Positions 3,717 through 11,002 of a stretch of 23,241 nucleotides of DNA are shown here, in pieces. Source of the DNA: a virus; the IMG/VR virus record IMGVR_UViG_3300027987_000369, positions 1-23,241 of that record; one strand, given 5' to 3'. The notes under the pieces are model-generated. The model was not told the origin of the DNA, ran no database searches, and saw nothing but the letters and a program-made list of their open reading frames with translations. A program made the position numbers and the translations under genes. Each line of letters begins with the position of its first letter. Within the stretch, counting starts at the first letter, position 1.

Positions 3717-4737
3717 ATGTCCTGTCTCTATGTTCCGGGTATGGCGGGCTCGACCTTGGGATCCGAATGGCCCAACTGGAGTCGGACGGCCTTTGCGTCA
3801 TGCGGTGCAGAAGTACATCCGTGTCGTGCCACTCCGACATCAACGATCGGCCCGAACCGTCTGTTACGTGGAGAGGGAAGCCTATGTCGCGGCCACGCTG
3901 GTTGCGCGCATGGAAGAGGGGCGGTTGGATCCGGCTCCTGTCTGGTGCGACGTTGAGTCCTTCGACAGCGCGCCGTGGTTTGGTGTCGTGGATTGCGTCG
4001 CTGCCGGCTTCCCGTGCCAACCGTGGAGCAACGCCGGCAAGGGAACGGGCACGAGTGACAAACGGTGGATCTGGCCCGCCATCGCCCGGGTGGTTCGCGA
4101 GGTGGGAGCGGGCCTCGTCTTCCTGGAGAACGTGCCCGGTTTGGTATCGCGAGGTGGCCTCGAGGCAGTGCTCGGTGACTTGGCCGCCCTCGGGTTCGAT
4201 GCGGAATGGTCGTGTCTATCAGCGGCCGAAGTTGGAGCTCCCCACCGACGCAACCGGCTTTTCATTCTCGCCGCCAACCGGCATGGCAGAGCTTGGCTCA
4301 GTGCTGCCGACGCCGACGGCGGCATCGTACGGGTCGAACCAGGGCGGCGCCGCGGGGCGCACGGGGAAGGTGCGCCACAGTCTCGAGTCGATGGCGAAGC
4401 TGCCGACGCCCACCGCGGCGGACTCGAGGGGGACGCGCACCGAGGGCTACGGCAACCCGAAAGCGGGAACCACGCTCACGGATATGTTGAAGGCGGGCCT
4501 GCCGACGCCGACCGCTCGCGATTGGAAGAGTGGGTGCAGCAACATCACTCGCAACAGGCGCCCGCTCAACGAAACGCTTTCGCAGGCTGGCCATGGCCCC
4601 CGCCTAAACCCTGCCTTCGTGGAGTGGATGATGGGTCTGCCACCCGCGTGGACCGAATTAGAGCTTGCGGGAACGGTGTCGTCCCGCAGCAAGCCGCCGC
4701 TGCCTTTGCAGCGCTCGCAGGAAGGATGATGGCATGA
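3713..4737 (+). pseudogene. C5-cytosine DNA methyltransferase with motifs split between two frames
   Basis: The family transfers a methyl group to C5 of cytosine. Motif I (LSLCSGYGGLDLG) begins at ATG 3713 in one frame. From about 3851 the conserved protein continues in the next frame: RTVCYVEREAYVAATLVARM, catalytic AAGFPCQPWSNAG with its Cys, FLENVPGLV, and GAPHRRNRLFILA near 4240-4275. After about 4280 the conserved text returns to the first frame (LPTPTAASYG, LPTPTARDW, FVEWMMGLPPAWTEL near 4620-4660). At the end, ACGNGVVPQQAAAAF is again in the second frame, stopping at 4737. The first frame stops at 4729. Both frames are open for about 1 kb. At least two frame changes are needed, so the gene is disrupted, misassembled or recoded. 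The stop at 4737 overlaps the next start, as expected of an intact operon. Confidence 0.8.
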
Positions 4738-5763: not shown

Positions 5764-5975
5764 GCGAAGAACGCCGCAAGGAAGCGGTCAATCACCCAGA
5801 GCATTACAACCCAGGCCCGCTTGAAACGATCAACATCATCGAGGCGTATGAGCTTGGCTTCAATCTGGGCAACGCGATCAAGTACATCCTCCGCGCCGAC
5901 AGGAAGGGCCGACGCGAGGAGGATTTGCAGAAGGCCCTTTGGTACCTCAAGCGAGAACTGGGAGATCGAACATGA
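5760..5975 (+). CDS. DUF3310 protein (T7 gp1.7-like domain)
   Basis: A 71-residue protein from ATG 5760. It shows the hallmark order of DUF3310: NHPEHYNPG, ETINIIEAYEL, FNLGNAIKYILRADRKG, EEDLQKALWYLKREL. The same domain occurs in the phage T7 gp1.7 nucleotide kinase region, so a role in nucleotide metabolism is possible, but this short version has no P-loop and I infer nothing more. It is coupled to the following deoxyribosyltransferase-like gene by an ATGA overlap. Confidence 0.85.
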   Translation: MSEERRKEAVNHPEHYNPGPLETINIIEAYELGFNLGNAIKYILRADRKGRREEDLQKALWYLKRELGDRT

Positions 5976-6292
5976 GAGTTGTTTACATGGCTCACCCCTT
6001 GTCGGGTGACGTCGAGGGAAACATTCGTCGCGCGAAGCAAATGTTGCGCGACCTTGAGGAGAAGCACCCGGACGTGGCCATCGTCGCCACCTGGATCACG
6101 GAGTGCGAGGTATGGGACGACAGCAACCCGGAGCATCGCGAGGCCGGCCTGCGTCGGGACCTGGCCGTCATTGCCAAGTGCGACGAGCTCTGGCTCACCG
6201 GGCCGGAGATCTCCGCCGGCATGATGCGCGAAGCGGCGAAGGCGACCGAACTGGGAATTCCGGTAACAGATCTGACCGCGAGGAACGAATGA
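5972..6292 (+). CDS. Nucleoside 2-deoxyribosyltransferase-like protein (DUF4406/DUF7768 type)
   Basis: From ATG 5972 the product has 106 residues. It starts with VVYMAHPLSGDVEGNIRRA, continues with VAIVATWITECEV, a DLAVIAKCDELWLTG segment, and ends with ELGIPVTDL. This is the Rossmann-like fold of phage proteins related to nucleoside 2-deoxyribosyltransferases, in which the N-terminal G-D loop and the acidic residue before the D-E-WL strand form the nucleotide site. The family exchanges or cleaves bases on deoxynucleosides; activity here is inferred. With the DUF3310 neighbour it forms a small nucleotide-metabolism pair. Confidence 0.7.
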   Translation: MRVVYMAHPLSGDVEGNIRRAKQMLRDLEEKHPDVAIVATWITECEVWDDSNPEHREAGLRRDLAVIAKCDELWLTGPEISAGMMREAAKATELGIPVTDLTARNE

Positions 6293-6487: not shown

Positions 6488-7135
6488 ATGAATGATTCCA
6501 AGAAGGTAGCCAAGAAGGGGAAGGCGAAGGGCGGCGCGAAGGGTGCCTCTGCCGACGCGCCGACGCGTATCGAAGCGACGCGTCTCGACTCGATCGAACC
6601 GCTTGCGCGCAACGCCAAGGCCCATGACGTCCCGAAGATCGTGCGGTCGTTTCGTCGCTTCGGGTTCGTTGCGCCACCGACCATCGATGAAAAGACGGGC
6701 ACGCTCGCAGCGGGCCACGGGCGCGTCAAAGCGCTTGAGCGCATGCGCAAGGGCGGCGAGAAGCCCCCTGCCCGAATCGATGTTGCCGCCGATGGCATGT
6801 GGATGGTGCCGGTGTTGCGAGGCATCTCGTTCGCCAACCAGCATGAACTCGAGGCGTACGCCATCGCCGACAACCGACTGACTGAGGTGGGTGGTTGGGA
6901 CAAGGAGAAGCTCACGGACTGGCTCCGCGACGGCGATGAGGACTTCGAGAGCATCGGCTTCAGCCAGGACGACGTGAAGAAGCTCCTGGGTGAGATGTCC
7001 GAGGAGATGGAGAAGGAGGGCGAGTCTGACTTCGTCTTCCAGGTGCTCGTCGAGTGTTCGGACGAGGACCACCAAGCGGAAGTGTTGGCCCAACTTGAAG
7101 GGGAGGGGATGAAATGCCGACCGTTGATATCCTGA
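6488..7135 (+). CDS. ParB/Srx-fold nuclease-like protein
   Basis: A 215-residue protein from ATG 6488 behind GAGGAAG. The first 20 residues are Lys/Gly-rich. Residues about 30-135 form a ParB N-terminal-like domain: I-LDSIEPLARNAK, FGFVAPPTID, the nucleotide-site motif AAGHGRVKAL (GHGR 76-79) and AYAIADNRLTEVGGWD (124-138). The C-terminal part ends FQVLVECSDEDHQAE and GMKCRPLIS, seen in phage proteins that sit before methyltransferases or ABC-like ATPases. The ParB/Srx fold includes nucleases, CTPases and adenylating enzymes, so the reaction here is open. It overlaps the downstream ABC-ATPase gene by 22 bases, which suggests a joint function. Confidence 0.85.
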   Translation: MNDSKKVAKKGKAKGGAKGASADAPTRIEATRLDSIEPLARNAKAHDVPKIVRSFRRFGFVAPPTIDEKTGTLAAGHGRVKALERMRKGGEKPPARIDVAADGMWMVPVLRGISFANQHELEAYAIADNRLTEVGGWDKEKLTDWLRDGDEDFESIGFSQDDVKKLLGEMSEEMEKEGESDFVFQVLVECSDEDHQAEVLAQLEGEGMKCRPLIS

Positions 7136-8065
7136 TCGAAGGCGCGCACCCGGACAGCGTCCGCAGCCGTCAGGTGTGCTCGATGTTTGATGTTCCGCCG
7201 GAACGCAAGTCCGCGCTCAAGTGGCACGGCCAGGTTCCCATTGATGAGCGCGAGTGGTCTGTTGGTCTCATCGTCGGCCCCTCGGGGTGCGGCAAGAGCA
7301 CCATCGCTCGCCACCTGTTCCCCGAGGAGATGGCGCGCACGCTCAAGTGGAAGGGCGGCTGTATGGTGGACGACTTCGCCGACTCGTTCTCGGTGAAGGA
7401 GATCGCCAGCGCACTCGGGTCGGTTGGCTTCAACACCATCCCGGCGTGGCTGCGCCCGTTCTCGGTCTTGTCCAACGGTGAGCAGTTCCGGGCGGGGCTT
7501 GCCCGACTGGGTTTTGGAGCCGGCGACAATGGCCTTCGCTTGGAGGTCGGTTCAACCCCGCCCAAGCGTCGAAGTCGAAGTCTGCCGAACAGAGCACAGC
7601 GACTGGAAGATCTTCGCTCCGTTTCACTATATGAGCGCGGATCTGCTCAAGGCGGCCCGCTGTTGGGTCCTGAAGGTCGGCGGCGAGAAGGTCGCCTTCG
7701 TGGGCGAGAGTCGCTTCCCCCATCCGAAGGTGAAGAACATCCGCCGCATCAACCGCGCCGTGTGCCTGCCCGACTGGCAGGGGCTCGGTCTGGTGTTCGC
7801 GCTGATGGACACGGTCGGGAAGGTCTACTGGTCGCAGAAGGAGCGGGTGCGTGCCTACCCGGCACACCCGTCCTTTATTCGTTCGTTTCAACGTCACGAG
7901 CGCTGGAAGCGCTGCCAGAAGCTCGGGCAGCCCACCAGCGTCAACATGAAAGGCGCGCGCAAACGCAACTGCGCCATCGGCGGTCGCGCGATGAGTTCGT
8001 TCGAGTGGGTCGGCGGCGACGGTGGCATCGACTCGACTACCGCCCGGCAATTGCTGGCCGGTTGA
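7114..8065 (+). pseudogene. Phage ABC-ATPase/GNAT fusion with internal deletion and frame change
   Basis: In one frame from ATG 7114 the protein has Walker A (GPSGCGKST, residues 55-63) and an ABC signature-like LSNGEQFR (119-126). After R131 (about base 7506) the family normally continues with Walker B, D-loop and His switch. None of these is present. The C-terminal domain resumes at once in the +1 frame from about 7502: PDWVLEPATMAFAW, RPSVEVEVCRT, FAPFHYMSADLLKAA, then a GNAT-like CLPDWQGLGL, ending at 8065. I estimate 50-75 missing codons from memory of intact relatives. The first frame reads on to 8076 with an unrelated tail. The product cannot be a normal ATPase. The overlap with the ParB-like gene is intact. 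Confidence 0.8.
7529..8065 (+). CDS. Possible stand-alone GNAT-like (Mom-like?) domain
   Basis: This is the C-terminal domain of the disrupted fusion, readable from ATG 7529 with TTGGAG at 7514-7519 as a possible ribosome site, giving 178 residues. It contains the FHYMS segment (residues 32-36), beta strands WVLKVGGEKVAFVGE and the acetyl-CoA-loop-like QGLG (84-87). Phage Mu Mom, which converts adenine to a carbamoylmethyl form, is a GNAT-fold protein with a comparable HY motif; the resemblance here is an inference. Independent translation would rescue this domain after loss of the ATPase core. An alternative is that it is never made. Confidence 0.4.
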   Translation: MAFAWRSVQPRPSVEVEVCRTEHSDWKIFAPFHYMSADLLKAARCWVLKVGGEKVAFVGESRFPHPKVKNIRRINRAVCLPDWQGLGLVFALMDTVGKVYWSQKERVRAYPAHPSFIRSFQRHERWKRCQKLGQPTSVNMKGARKRNCAIGGRAMSSFEWVGGDGGIDSTTARQLLAG

Positions 8066-8393
8066 ACCCGCTGTGAGGCTTCAGGCGATGCCAGCGATAC
8101 TGATCCAAAAAGCGCACCCCGGGATAGAGCGCTTTCACGCTCTCAATGAGCACCTGCGCCGACGGGAAGCCGTCGGCGACGGCGACCTCGTCGGTGATGT
8201 CTTCGGGGAACCGAAGGTGCAGGATCGACTTCAGCTCCGCCGTGGCGAAGGTGCTGTTCTGCCGATACCCGTTGCGCATGACGATCTCGGTGCCGACCTC
8301 GGGGTCTGGAAGGATCGTTGCTCGTCGCAACGTCGCCGTTTTGGTGCCGGCAAGGATTGGGTCCACAAAGCGCCATTTAAACTGCAACTCCAT
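8037..8393 (-). CDS. ASCH-domain protein (only minus-strand gene)
   Basis: Reading the minus strand from ATG at 8393 to TAG at 8037-8039 gives 118 residues. It has KWRFVDPILAGTKTATLRR, PEVGTEIVMRNG, DITDEVAVADGFPS and AQVLIESVKALYPG. The G-KT-T-RR, P-VG and ADGF patterns are those of ASCH domains, a PUA-like fold that binds RNA or modified nucleosides and sometimes hydrolyses acetylated cytidine. I see no good Shine-Dalgarno before the start. A longer start upstream would invade the divergent gene and lacks domain support. Its 3' end overlaps the GNAT frame by 29 bases in a convergent arrangement. Confidence 0.72.
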   Translation of the reverse strand: MELQFKWRFVDPILAGTKTATLRRATILPDPEVGTEIVMRNGYRQNSTFATAELKSILHLRFPEDITDEVAVADGFPSAQVLIESVKALYPGVRFLDQYRWHRLKPHSGFNRPAIAGR

Positions 8394-8411: not shown

Positions 8412-8612
8412 ATGAACGAACGGGGCCAAGCGCAAAGCCAAGCTCACACGGCTTCCATTGTCGCGAACCTGACTCTCTTGCAGACGTTGACTCATATCGT
8501 CCGCGGGGTGCGACGTGGCGCCTTGCTCGACGAGTCGCGCAACGAAGTGAACCAAGCTTGGGCGCTGCTCATCAGGGCGCGCGATCGAGAGATGGGAAGA
8601 CCATGGCTGTGA
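8412..8612 (+). CDS. Hypothetical helical protein (66 aa)
   Basis: ATG 8412 follows GAGGGGGA at 8395-8402. The product is helical, with a hydrophobic first half (SIVANLTLLQTLTHIVRGV) and a charged second half (ESRNEVNQAWALLIRARDREM). It is not hydrophobic enough for a confident membrane helix. Divergent from the ASCH gene, with 18 bases between their starts. Family not recognised. Confidence 0.55.
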   Translation: MNERGQAQSQAHTASIVANLTLLQTLTHIVRGVRRGALLDESRNEVNQAWALLIRARDREMGRPWL

Positions 8613-8899
8613 AGAAAACGCAATGCCCGAACTGTGCCGGCGCTGGCATCATCCCTATTGAAAGAGGGGGCGGCGACTGTGGCATCTGCGACGGCACCGG
8701 CAGAGCGACCGCCGACGACTGGGACTCCGAACTCAGCCCCGGCGACAACGTTCTGAAAATGGCCTGCGCGTGGGTGAAGAAGCTGCCCGACGAAGCGTTG
8801 TGGGCGCTTGCTACCTCGGCGAACCCGGCGATAGGAGATCCCCTGATGAATATCGTGGCCGTGGAGGCCACGGCGCGACTCACGGGGAGATCGAGATGA
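8603..8899 (+). CDS. Small DnaJ-type zinc-finger protein
   Basis: A 98-residue product from ATG 8603, overlapping the previous gene by 10 bases. Residues 8-35 hold two CxxCxGxG-type units (CPNCAGAG and CGICDGTG), as in the DnaJ cysteine-rich zinc domain and in many small phage proteins. The rest is helical (VLKMACAWVKKLPDEALWALA). The J domain is absent, so it is not a DnaJ homologue. It may be a small nucleic-acid or protein-binding adaptor. Confidence 0.7.
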   Translation: MAVKKTQCPNCAGAGIIPIERGGGDCGICDGTGRATADDWDSELSPGDNVLKMACAWVKKLPDEALWALATSANPAIGDPLMNIVAVEATARLTGRSR

Positions 8900-9081: not shown

Positions 9082-9441
9082 ATGAAGAGGAGCATGGGTA
9101 AGCTGGTCCGCTACGCGGACATCGTCCGCGACGTGCCCGACGTACCCGACGACGCCATTGGCGCGGCCGAGTGGGTCCACAACGTTCTGTGTCAGGAACT
9201 TCATGACAACCTGGCCGACCCCGCTCTGGTTGGCGAGAAGCGCCGCGACACCATTTTGAAGTTGTCGATGCGAGTCGTCCAGGCGACGCCGCACAGCGAA
9301 CTGTTCCAGGCCCGGGAATCGTTGCGCGAGGAAGAGAACGCTGTTTCGGGCAACAGCAAACTTCGGGGGAAACTGGAAGACAGTGTATCGGGGAGCGCGG
9401 GACATATACGCGCGGCAGCTCCTAGAAGGCGCCCGAAATGA
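9082..9441 (+). CDS. Hypothetical protein before terminase, possible small terminase subunit
   Basis: Starting at ATG 9082 (or ATG 9094, which sits right after GAAGAGGAG and would drop four residues) the product has 119 residues. It is helical and acidic in the first half (VRYADIVRDVPDVPDDAIGAAEWVHNVL) with a basic C-terminus (RAAAPRRRPK). The only reason to propose a small terminase subunit is its place immediately before, and overlapping by 59 bases, the large subunit. No clear DNA-binding motif is visible. Confidence 0.5.
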   Translation: MKRSMGKLVRYADIVRDVPDVPDDAIGAAEWVHNVLCQELHDNLADPALVGEKRRDTILKLSMRVVQATPHSELFQARESLREEENAVSGNSKLRGKLEDSVSGSAGHIRAAAPRRRPK

Positions 9442-11002
9442 TGCCCGGTTCCAAGATCTGGCCATCGAGTTCGTTCTAGAGGGCTGGCGAAAGACCAGCG
9501 AGGATGTCTACGTCCGGCAACCGGACAAGGACAAGTTGCTGATGGCGTGCGGCGGTCGCTGGGACCGAAAGCACAAGCAATGGAGCACCGAGCCGCCCGA
9601 CAAGGTGCTGCGCGTGGGCGTTCATCCGGGGCAGAAAGATGCCGCGCTGTGGTGGCGCGAGTGGCTAGTCGCTCGTATCACAGGGGAGCAGCTCGAAACG
9701 CCCATATACAGCTCGCTTCTGTATGGTGGTTCTCGTTCCGGCAAGACGCACCTGGGGCTGCGTATGGCCGTCGCCTTTATGATCGCAGTTCCGGGCAGTC
9801 GTGTGTGGCTCGTCCAAGAGGCCGAGATCGAACGGGCAGACGAGATCGAAGCGGAGCTTGACGAGTTCCTCCCCGATGAGTGGTTTGAGAAGCGTGGGGC
9901 GCAGTATCGCTGCGTCAACGGGTCGGTAGGCCGGGTTCGGTCCGCGAAGTACCCCGCAAAGCTCAAACGCGGCCGTTGTGACCTCGCGTTCCTCAATGAA
10001 GGCCAGAACGTCAGCGAACTTGCCCACGCCATGCTCCGAATGAGGACATCCGATACTGGCGGTGTCGTCCTCATCGCAGCCAACCCGCCCAACGATAATC
10101 CCGACGGGCAGTGGATCGCCGACAGCATCGAAGAGGAAAAAGCCGGGCGTCGTCCCAATATGAAGGTCTTCAACCTCAACGCGGTTGGCAATCCATACAT
10201 CAACCGAGAACAGCTTGAGGCTCTCAAAAACGAGACGGATCCCCGGACATACGAAATTGAGGTACTGGGCCGTGTCCTGCCACCATCTGACGCCGTTCTT
10301 CATGCCTTCAGTCCTCTGGAGAACGTTGCGCCGGTGCCGCACAGCAAGTGGGACATCACCGACGAATTTGCTGCGAAGTGTGGGCTCGGCGTCAACGTGA
10401 CCGACATCGTCGGCCTCGACTTCCAGCGTACCCCATTCATGGCCGCCGTGGCATCGAGAGCGTTTCGCAATCCGCAGGACGCAAAGCGCCCGCTTCTCTA
10501 CCATCGCCTCGCCATTCGCGTGGAGCTGGGCGACGAGTACGACCTGTCTGACTCGCTGTATGACCACGACTTCGACCCGGAGACCACCGTTCTGATTTGC
10601 GACGCGTCGGGCGACTGGCAGGACGCGGACAGAACCAAGGGCGGCGCCAGCTTCGAGATTCTGCGGCGCTGTGGCTGGCGCCGCATCCACAAGCCAGACG
10701 TAAACTCCGAGCGCAACCCGCCGCTCCTCGAGCGAATGAAAAACGACAACCGGCTGTTTTGCTCCGAGTCCGGCATGCGGCTGGTTCGCATTGACCCGGT
10801 GGGCGCGGCGTCGCTGATCCAGGTCTGCAAGCACTACCGCATGAAGCACGGCAAACCATCCCGAAACAGCCAGTACACCCACGAATACGACGCCATGTCC
10901 TACATCCACTACAGGGTCTATCCGCGCCGCGTCACCCACCGCGGGCTGGGCTACAAGCGGCTGAAGGGTCGCAAGCGAGCCAGCGAGTTAAAGAAGCTCT
11001 GA
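9383..11002 (+). CDS. terL: Large terminase subunit with N-terminal extension
   Basis: From GTG 9383 the protein has 539 residues. Walker A is GGSRSGKT (115-122), Walker B with catalytic Glu is DLAFLNE (200-206), and the coupling motif region is AANPP (233-236). The RNase H-like nuclease has Asp346 (GLDFQ), Asp407 (ICDASGD) and Asp503 (EYDAMSY). The enzyme cuts concatemers and pumps DNA into the prohead using ATP. Residues 1-100 precede the ATPase and include CGGRWDRKHKQW (56-67), a GxRWD-K-W pattern like DUF5710. The GTG start lies inside the upstream gene behind GGAAG; the next ATG (residue 54) would cut into this segment. The last 30 residues are strongly basic. Confidence 0.93.
   Translation: MYRGARDIYARQLLEGARNDARFQDLAIEFVLEGWRKTSEDVYVRQPDKDKLLMACGGRWDRKHKQWSTEPPDKVLRVGVHPGQKDAALWWREWLVARITGEQLETPIYSSLLYGGSRSGKTHLGLRMAVAFMIAVPGSRVWLVQEAEIERADEIEAELDEFLPDEWFEKRGAQYRCVNGSVGRVRSAKYPAKLKRGRCDLAFLNEGQNVSELAHAMLRMRTSDTGGVVLIAANPPNDNPDGQWIADSIEEEKAGRRPNMKVFNLNAVGNPYINREQLEALKNETDPRTYEIEVLGRVLPPSDAVLHAFSPLENVAPVPHSKWDITDEFAAKCGLGVNVTDIVGLDFQRTPFMAAVASRAFRNPQDAKRPLLYHRLAIRVELGDEYDLSDSLYDHDFDPETTVLICDASGDWQDADRTKGGASFEILRRCGWRRIHKPDVNSERNPPLLERMKNDNRLFCSESGMRLVRIDPVGAASLIQVCKHYRMKHGKPSRNSQYTHEYDAMSYIHYRVYPRRVTHRGLGYKRLKGRKRASELKKL

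Follow-up and report, generated by a model that had tools for sequence, protein, structure and literature searches.

A broken copy, in a tailed-phage fragment, of a conserved ParB-ABC ATPase-GNAT cassette that is probably devoted to DNA acyl modification

The Mom protein of phage Mu protects Mu DNA from restriction. Another phage GNAT, coupled to an ABC ATPase and found in pT24, has been predicted to place an uncharacterised acyl mark on a DNA base (Iyer 2013, as related in an excerpt of PMC7824862). For the ASCH fold, an excerpt of PMC6972931 describes the E. coli protein YqfB, which hydrolyses N4-acyl-cytosines, including N4-acyl-cytidine, N4-acyl-deoxycytidines and N4-acyl-dCTP, by means of Thr24, Lys21 and Glu74 with Arg26. 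The window analysed here is the whole of a 23,241-nt stretch of viral DNA (IMG/VR record IMGVR_UViG_3300027987_000369, positions 1 to 23,241), in which an earlier note had proposed an undescribed DNA or nucleoside modification or protection system between positions 6488 and 8393. Using tblastn, pT24 was identified as a homologue of the window GNAT (E 2e-13) and of the intact protein of locus L002 (E 2e-52). The word undescribed had to be given up, since an ABC ATPase with a GNAT is already presented as a predicted DNA base acylator in the same excerpt of PMC7824862. No description of a ParB-ABC-GNAT cassette was found in the literature searched, which included excerpts of PMC7824862, PMC10853773, PMC12839542, PMC6972931 and PMC12707154; as far as that literature extends, the ParB platform, the cassette swaps and the donor clues presented below appear to be new.

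Profile matches identified the window as a fragment of a tailed phage, with a Mu-type portal (PF06074, E 3.1e-82), a tail sheath, a minor tail protein and a terminase. Upstream of the terminase large subunit gene (9383..11002, + strand; phrog_2, E 1.7e-11) lie, in order, a ParB-like gene, the start of an ABC ATPase, a GNAT domain and, on the opposite strand, an ASCH gene. The ParB/Srx-type protein (6488..7135, + strand, 215 aa) consists of an N-terminal ParB/Srx domain with a GHGR motif and a short C-terminal tail domain, and it matches both phrog_620 (E 4e-31) and the ParB-methyltransferase family phrog_498 (E 1.5e-30). The window copy was not matched by Pfam ParB_N at E 0.1, a profile that its relative L035 matches at 1.4e-6; the GxxR motif is present, and G76 and R79 are invariant in an alignment with 27 relatives. 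The final 22 nt of the gene (7114..7135, + strand) overlap the start of an ABC ATPase N-terminal half (7114..7512, + strand; Pfam ABC_tran, E 1.3e-5; phrog_11143 positions 10-124, E 2.5e-32), in agreement with the overlap of a ParB-like ORF and an ABC ATPase described in the earlier note. Walker A (7276-7302) and an LSNGEQ signature (7468-7485) are located in this half. The GNAT acyltransferase domain follows on the same strand in a second frame, at approximately 7502..8065 (Acetyltransf_1, E 0.003; phrog_11143 positions 180-352, E 3.6e-30), with HY at 7625-7630 and QGLG at 7778-7789. Convergent to the cassette, the ASCH gene occupies 8037..8393 on the - strand (Pfam ASCH, E 7.4e-7) and overlaps the 3' end of the GNAT by 29 nt, so that its earlier placement there was correct. 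Walker A, Walker B, H-loop and GNAT CoA loop are used here as the customary motif names. A PADLOC search matched the window ParB to MTase_II only, and the window GNAT ORF gave no match to its defence-specific proteins. The ABC part of intact relatives matched PADLOC mad3 (1.5e-8 and 4e-11) within the signature/Walker B region alone, matches that are read as general ABC homology.

The ABC ATPase and the GNAT had been taken for a single fused protein, which is not what the window encodes. The ABC ORF beginning at 7114 uses frame 1, the GNAT uses frame 2, and positions 125-179 of phrog_11143, which matches in both frames, are absent. The spacing from the signature (SNGEQ) to PDW is 31 nt in the window versus 201 nt in L002, L147, L020 and L164, a net loss of 170 nt that is not a multiple of 3; the junction of this deletion and frameshift lies at 7489..7516 on the + strand. 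The stretch lost contains Walker B, the D-loop and the H-loop, while Walker A and the signature remain, and the window copy does not encode a complete one-chain ABC ATPase (Walker A, signature, Walker B, H-loop) with GNAT. Judged by these features, the window cassette is probably inactive, or else the contig is misassembled. Given the net 170-nt loss and the frameshift through the ATPase core, we hold with good confidence that the feature in the window is a decayed relic or an assembly gap without function, whatever the intact family does. On the other side, no family-invariant residue of the GNAT half is lost in the window and the ParB reading frame is open, which suggests that the lesion is very recent or that the contig was misassembled, and not that the copy has been decaying for long. 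A relic or gap in the window copy is compatible with a DNA-modifying role for the intact family.

Homologues of the cassette were collected as 80 IMG/VR loci and 80 bacterial loci, 160 in all. A ParB profile match accompanied ABC-GNAT in 76 of 80 loci in each set. These contigs are not independent of each other: at 80% identity the 72 full-length viral proteins reduce to 21 clusters. The four viral loci lacking a match (L004, L007, L075 and L080) are cut at a contig end or have no ATPase start. Measured from the ABC start to the end of the ParB stop codon, the 22-nt overlap recurs exactly in 75 of the 76 measurable viral loci. Among the 80 bacterial loci, the exact 22-nt overlap is found in 28 and another spacing in 36; two more are fused, and by the same rule the remaining 14 show no ParB within 700 nt. 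Single-chain ParB-ABC-GNAT fusions occur in L121 (611 aa) and L155 (584 aa). ABC-GNAT itself is usually one chain of approximately 360 aa (phrog_11143 has 357 positions), and the ATPase and GNAT are two separate genes in Lactococcus P335, MismyG, L039 and L069. The recurrence of the same genes in 80 + 80 loci indicates that the arrangement is not due to chance. ParB and the ABC-GNAT behind it form a real unit, and the conserved order that had been suggested as a check was indeed found.

A terminase-like cluster, whose member in L042 is a Terminase_3, was present in 71 of the 80 viral loci at a median offset of 1458 nt from the ABC start, mostly just 3' of the cassette. The two DNA methyltransferases and the deoxyribosyltransferase-like gene of the window, which had been linked to the cassette, were rejected as parts of it: homologues of the Dam, Dcm and DUF7768 genes occur in one, two and none of the 160 loci, respectively. 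FPHPKVKN was likewise rejected as a family signature, since it had served as a scan pattern for both locus sets and is absent from most bacterial members; the conservation of DEFTSVVD in the bacterial set is biased, as this was one of the scan patterns of that set. Streptococcal and oenococcal phage records annotate members of the family as ABC transporters (iron-siderophore), and the ATPase fold is transporter-like. This function is extremely unlikely, being contradicted by an architecture in which the ATPase is fused or coupled to GNAT and ParB, and no membrane partner was noticed among the recurrent neighbour clusters.

Alignment showed that the roughly 41 C-terminal residues encoded by the ParB gene (7010..7132, + strand) form a separate mini-domain, here termed the CTD. 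Scanning with the L035 ParB as query yielded a set of 75 ParB-domain loci, in which the tail was found in five of six ParB genes adjoining ABC-GNAT versus none of 68 other ParB loci; the 75th locus, L290, is cut, has no ParB domain and was left out of this count. Porphyromonas gingivalis phages 006a and 009a and Pseudomonas phage Komp_PAO1_1 lack the ParB/Srx domain and retain the tail, encoded by a stand-alone gene of 42-49 aa before ABC-GNAT. Neither ParB nor CTD was detected upstream of ABC-GNAT in pT24, and in Leptospira LE4 the tail match fell below threshold. With these two exceptions, the small tail is the constant partner of ABC-GNAT.

The GNAT had been likened to Mu Mom on account of its HY motif. 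In 70 GNAT sequences including that of the window, 14 columns, which cover active-site and CoA-loop residues, are invariant; the window keeps all of them, with W, F, H, Y, R, P, D, Q, G, P, W and R as the residues kept. An AlphaFold2 model of the window GNAT has a GNAT fold with a mean pLDDT of 87.5. In an hhalign comparison with Mom the HY motifs are in register, at a probability of 0.66% and an E of 0.086 that is not significant. At E values up to 0.1 the window GNAT ORF matched only Acetyltransf_1 and Acetyltransf_7 in Pfam, and it did not match Pfam Mom (PF25680), a profile that Mu Mom itself matches at 2.4e-75. Membership of the Mom family was rejected on these two grounds. The best 50 matches listed in a fold search with the GNAT are generic GNATs, dominated by the protein N-acetyltransferases RimI, Naa50 and Ard1, and include many acetyltransferases of proteins or small molecules; the absence of the Mom structure 8bv8 from those 50 says nothing either way. 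With the whole ABC-GNAT model, the matches listed were filled by ABC cassettes.

Such fold matches would suit a GNAT that acylates a protein, for example terminase, portal, host RNA polymerase or a restriction enzyme, with ParB and the ATPase targeting DNA-bound proteins near packaging. The cassette adjoins terminase genes, and host RNA polymerase is a known target of phage GNATs (excerpt of PMC7824862). We nevertheless consider a protein substrate rather unlikely, because near-identical phages have a DNA methyltransferase or Mom at the same place and DNA methyltransferases carry this ParB domain as a fusion. Within the 75-locus set, an N6/N4 DNA methyltransferase comes next after the ParB domain in 49 loci (48 of 48 in one alignment, plus L266), Mom adjoins it in 10 (by profile search, Pfam-confirmed for L223 and L258) and ABC-GNAT occurs with it in seven, an assignment of neighbours that leaves out L279, L280, L283-L285, L286 and L289. 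A TET-associated glycosyltransferase follows the ParB domain in L278, and a phrog_854 glucosyltransferase lies near it in L282. The ParB proteins of L279 and L280 are of the same length as that of L278.

A comparison of near-identical marine phages located the exchange. L216, which carries ABC-GNAT, and L219, which carries a ParB-methyltransferase, are 94.3% identical over 2904 nt ending with the ParB domain, cannot be aligned through the cassette, and are 90.5% identical over the 1011 nt directly after it. The same pattern was seen with the methyltransferase loci L222, L225 and L236, and in L223 Mom stands in place of ABC-GNAT between flanks that are 93.2% identical over 840 nt and 84.2% over 1062 nt. 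The unit swapped behind the same ParB domain is the ParB tail together with ABC-GNAT. In the Mu-like phages of P. gingivalis, the right-end slot, which is the site of com-mom in Mu, holds ABC-GNAT and a formyltransferase in 006a and 009a versus Mom in 012a and 015a; the flanks are 81-89% identical and the last 87-90 nt 81-83%. Mom was not found by profile search in any of the 160 ABC-GNAT loci. Since Aeromonas phage PX29 has Mom as well as ABC-GNAT, the two are not strict alternatives.

Natural replacement by a DNA methyltransferase or Mom is the best functional evidence for DNA modification that the comparisons offer, and it is an equivalence of position, not of chemistry. Since known DNA-modifying enzymes occupy exactly the place of the cassette in related phages, DNA acylation is probable, and the cassette is probably a DNA acyl-modification cassette of the predicted kind. 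The role in DNA base modification put forward in the earlier note is thus supported by the conserved order together with the swaps.

Genes for a possible acyl donor accompany some members. An aspartate 1-decarboxylase (PanD, PF02261) and a short CoA-transferase III (CoA_transf_3, PF02515) lie right behind ABC-GNAT in Gordonia phage Jace, L020, L111, L125 and L127, identified by Pfam for both genes of Jace and L125, the L020 decarboxylase and the L111 CoA-transferase, and by phmmer for the rest. L125 and L127 are near-identical, and the pair requires four changes on the tree. L095 has only the CoA-transferase, further from ABC-GNAT. A formyltransferase (PF00551) is found behind ABC-GNAT in the P. 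gingivalis phages, Komp_PAO1_1, 10 Gordonia phages and the faecal records MT835523 and MT836387, with adjacency taken from coordinates in both faecal records and nine of the Gordonia phages; the three members placed in the tree form one clade. Donor genes are rare, with PanD in 4 of 160 loci, and no formyltransferase was found in the 160 ABC-GNAT loci. These accessory genes point to an aminoacyl donor, in that aspartate could be converted to beta-alanine and then beta-alanyl-CoA for transfer to a base, with formyl capping the aminoacyl group.

From the conserved unit and its swaps, together with the accessory genes and the conserved active-site residues, we infer that DNA is the substrate, and we favour, with reasonable confidence, a phage base-modification system in the intact family, in which a ParB-guided ABC-GNAT acylates a base amine. 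The ParB/Srx domain, a plug-in module common to phage DNA methyltransferases, Mom and a glycosyltransferase, would bring the enzyme to DNA, and the short tail would be the specific adaptor to the ABC ATPase-GNAT protein. Binding and hydrolysis of ATP may drive loading on DNA or the opening of a base pair, after which the GNAT would acylate an exocyclic amine of a base with acyl-CoA as donor. In members with dedicated donor genes, the group transferred would probably be aminoacyl, with the decarboxylase and CoA-transferase supplying beta-alanyl-CoA, and the formyltransferase may cap its free amine. The putative mark would shield phage DNA from restriction, and the ASCH protein may remove or read N-acyl bases.

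The ASCH gene is supported as a recurrent neighbour. When 50 of the 80 viral records were scanned with the Pfam ASCH profile, four matches were obtained (L002, L020, L026 and L027, from three lineages), all directly 3' of ABC-GNAT and one of them over the cut-off. With queries derived from the neighbours, 18 of 21 ASCH ORFs lay within 1.5 kb 3' of ABC-GNAT (p 1e-12), 15 of these 18 convergent as in the window; this statistic is biased, as the six queries were chosen as cassette neighbours and the loci are related, and the unbiased test is the Pfam scan only. The distribution of ASCH on the tree needs 11 changes. The best PDB matches of the window ASCH are N4-acetylcytidine amidohydrolases, which are weak (E 0.08 and 0.41). 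It is conceivable that the GNAT acts on a free nucleotide or RNA instead of DNA, with ASCH recycling the N-acyl nucleoside: YqfB-type ASCH proteins cleave N4-acyl-cytidine and N4-acyl-dCTP (excerpt of PMC6972931), and the window protein keeps the active-site K-x-x-T-x-R, corresponding to Lys21, Thr24 and Arg26 of YqfB. In the other neighbour ASCH proteins that the motif search could read, Glu replaces the Thr nucleophile, which may mean binding rather than cutting, and ParB domains are common to enzymes that act on DNA; a nucleotide or RNA substrate is accordingly quite unlikely.

Beyond the favoured base-modification role, a wider scheme is put forward only tentatively, in which one ParB domain, usually near terminase, would serve as a modular platform for the writers methyltransferase, Mom, glycosyltransferase and ABC-GNAT, with ABC-GNAT aminoacylating bases (beta-alanyl or formylated glycyl-like) and ASCH erasing or reading the mark. 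If DNA acylation is right, it would account for a gene that is common in phages and that annotations often give as an iron or ABC transporter, a possible aminoacylated base would join the list of phage DNA modifications, and a swap-in architecture would have one ParB domain serving many DNA writers. Named, culturable phages would offer the chemistry for measurement. For the window itself the significance is smaller, as its copy is damaged.

Among known systems, the ABC ATPase-GNAT system of Iyer 2013, known here through an excerpt of PMC7824862, is the same protein family with the same predicted function, phrog_11143 matching both window halves; in the window it stands with a ParB/Srx gene and its CTD and a convergent ASCH gene, and its ATPase is broken. 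The ParB-fused phage N6/N4 DNA methyltransferases (phrog_498, PADLOC MTase_II) share the ParB domain and the place in near-identical phages, and differ in having a methyltransferase effector where the window family has CTD and ABC-GNAT. E. coli YqfB, an N4-acetylcytidine amidohydrolase, has the ASCH fold and equivalents of its Lys21, Thr24 and Arg26 in the window protein, whereas the similarity is only weak (E 0.08), Glu74 is replaced by Asp, and His70 and Asp27 are not kept. Mu Mom (PF25680, PDB 8bv8) resembles the window GNAT in belonging to the GNAT superfamily, in having HY in register and in occupying the same genomic slot in sister phages, but the window GNAT has no Pfam Mom match and no significant hhalign score against Mom, and the Mom loci compared carry neither the ABC ATPase nor the CTD.

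Each of the writers, the DNA-modifying genes that lie behind the common ParB domain, may have its own ParB tail. In the ParB genes of three loci that adjoin Mom or a glucosyltransferase (L223, at 419-958, L265 and L282), the tail that accompanies ABC-GNAT is replaced by a short CxxC zinc-ribbon-like C-terminus. A 42 aa gene annotated as an 'acr candidate' (L205 5673-5801; BK068091.1) is the ParB tail domain preceding ABC-GNAT, and the anti-CRISPR label is therefore doubtful. At L281, approximately 2 kb containing other genes separates the tail-bearing ParB from the ABC ATPase.

Two DNA methyltransferases and a deoxyribosyltransferase-like gene had earlier been tied to the cassette by proximity, an association that was not borne out: across the compared loci (80 viral and 80 bacterial), no recurrence with the cassette was found for the Dam-type methyltransferase (1370-1951), C5 methyltransferase (3730-4737) or deoxyribosyltransferase-like DUF7768 gene (5939-6292) of the window. 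Its CxxC zinc-ribbon-like gene (8558-8899) does not recur with the cassette either.

Numerous cassette copies are located on bacterial chromosomes (L084-L163), many of them from Planctomycetes and Nonomuraea. Terminase or portal genes adjoin at least some of these copies, which are therefore read as prophages or their remnants.

In Gordonia phage Jace, an ASCH match (1.5e-6) is located on the minus strand (L164 5656-6114), in a region annotated as a helix-turn-helix protein. Gene gp3 of Gordonia phage AnClar (L209 2312-2962), annotated as a tRNA-methyltransferase, matches Formyl_trans_N and shows 39% identity to the formyltransferase of Komp_PAO1_1.
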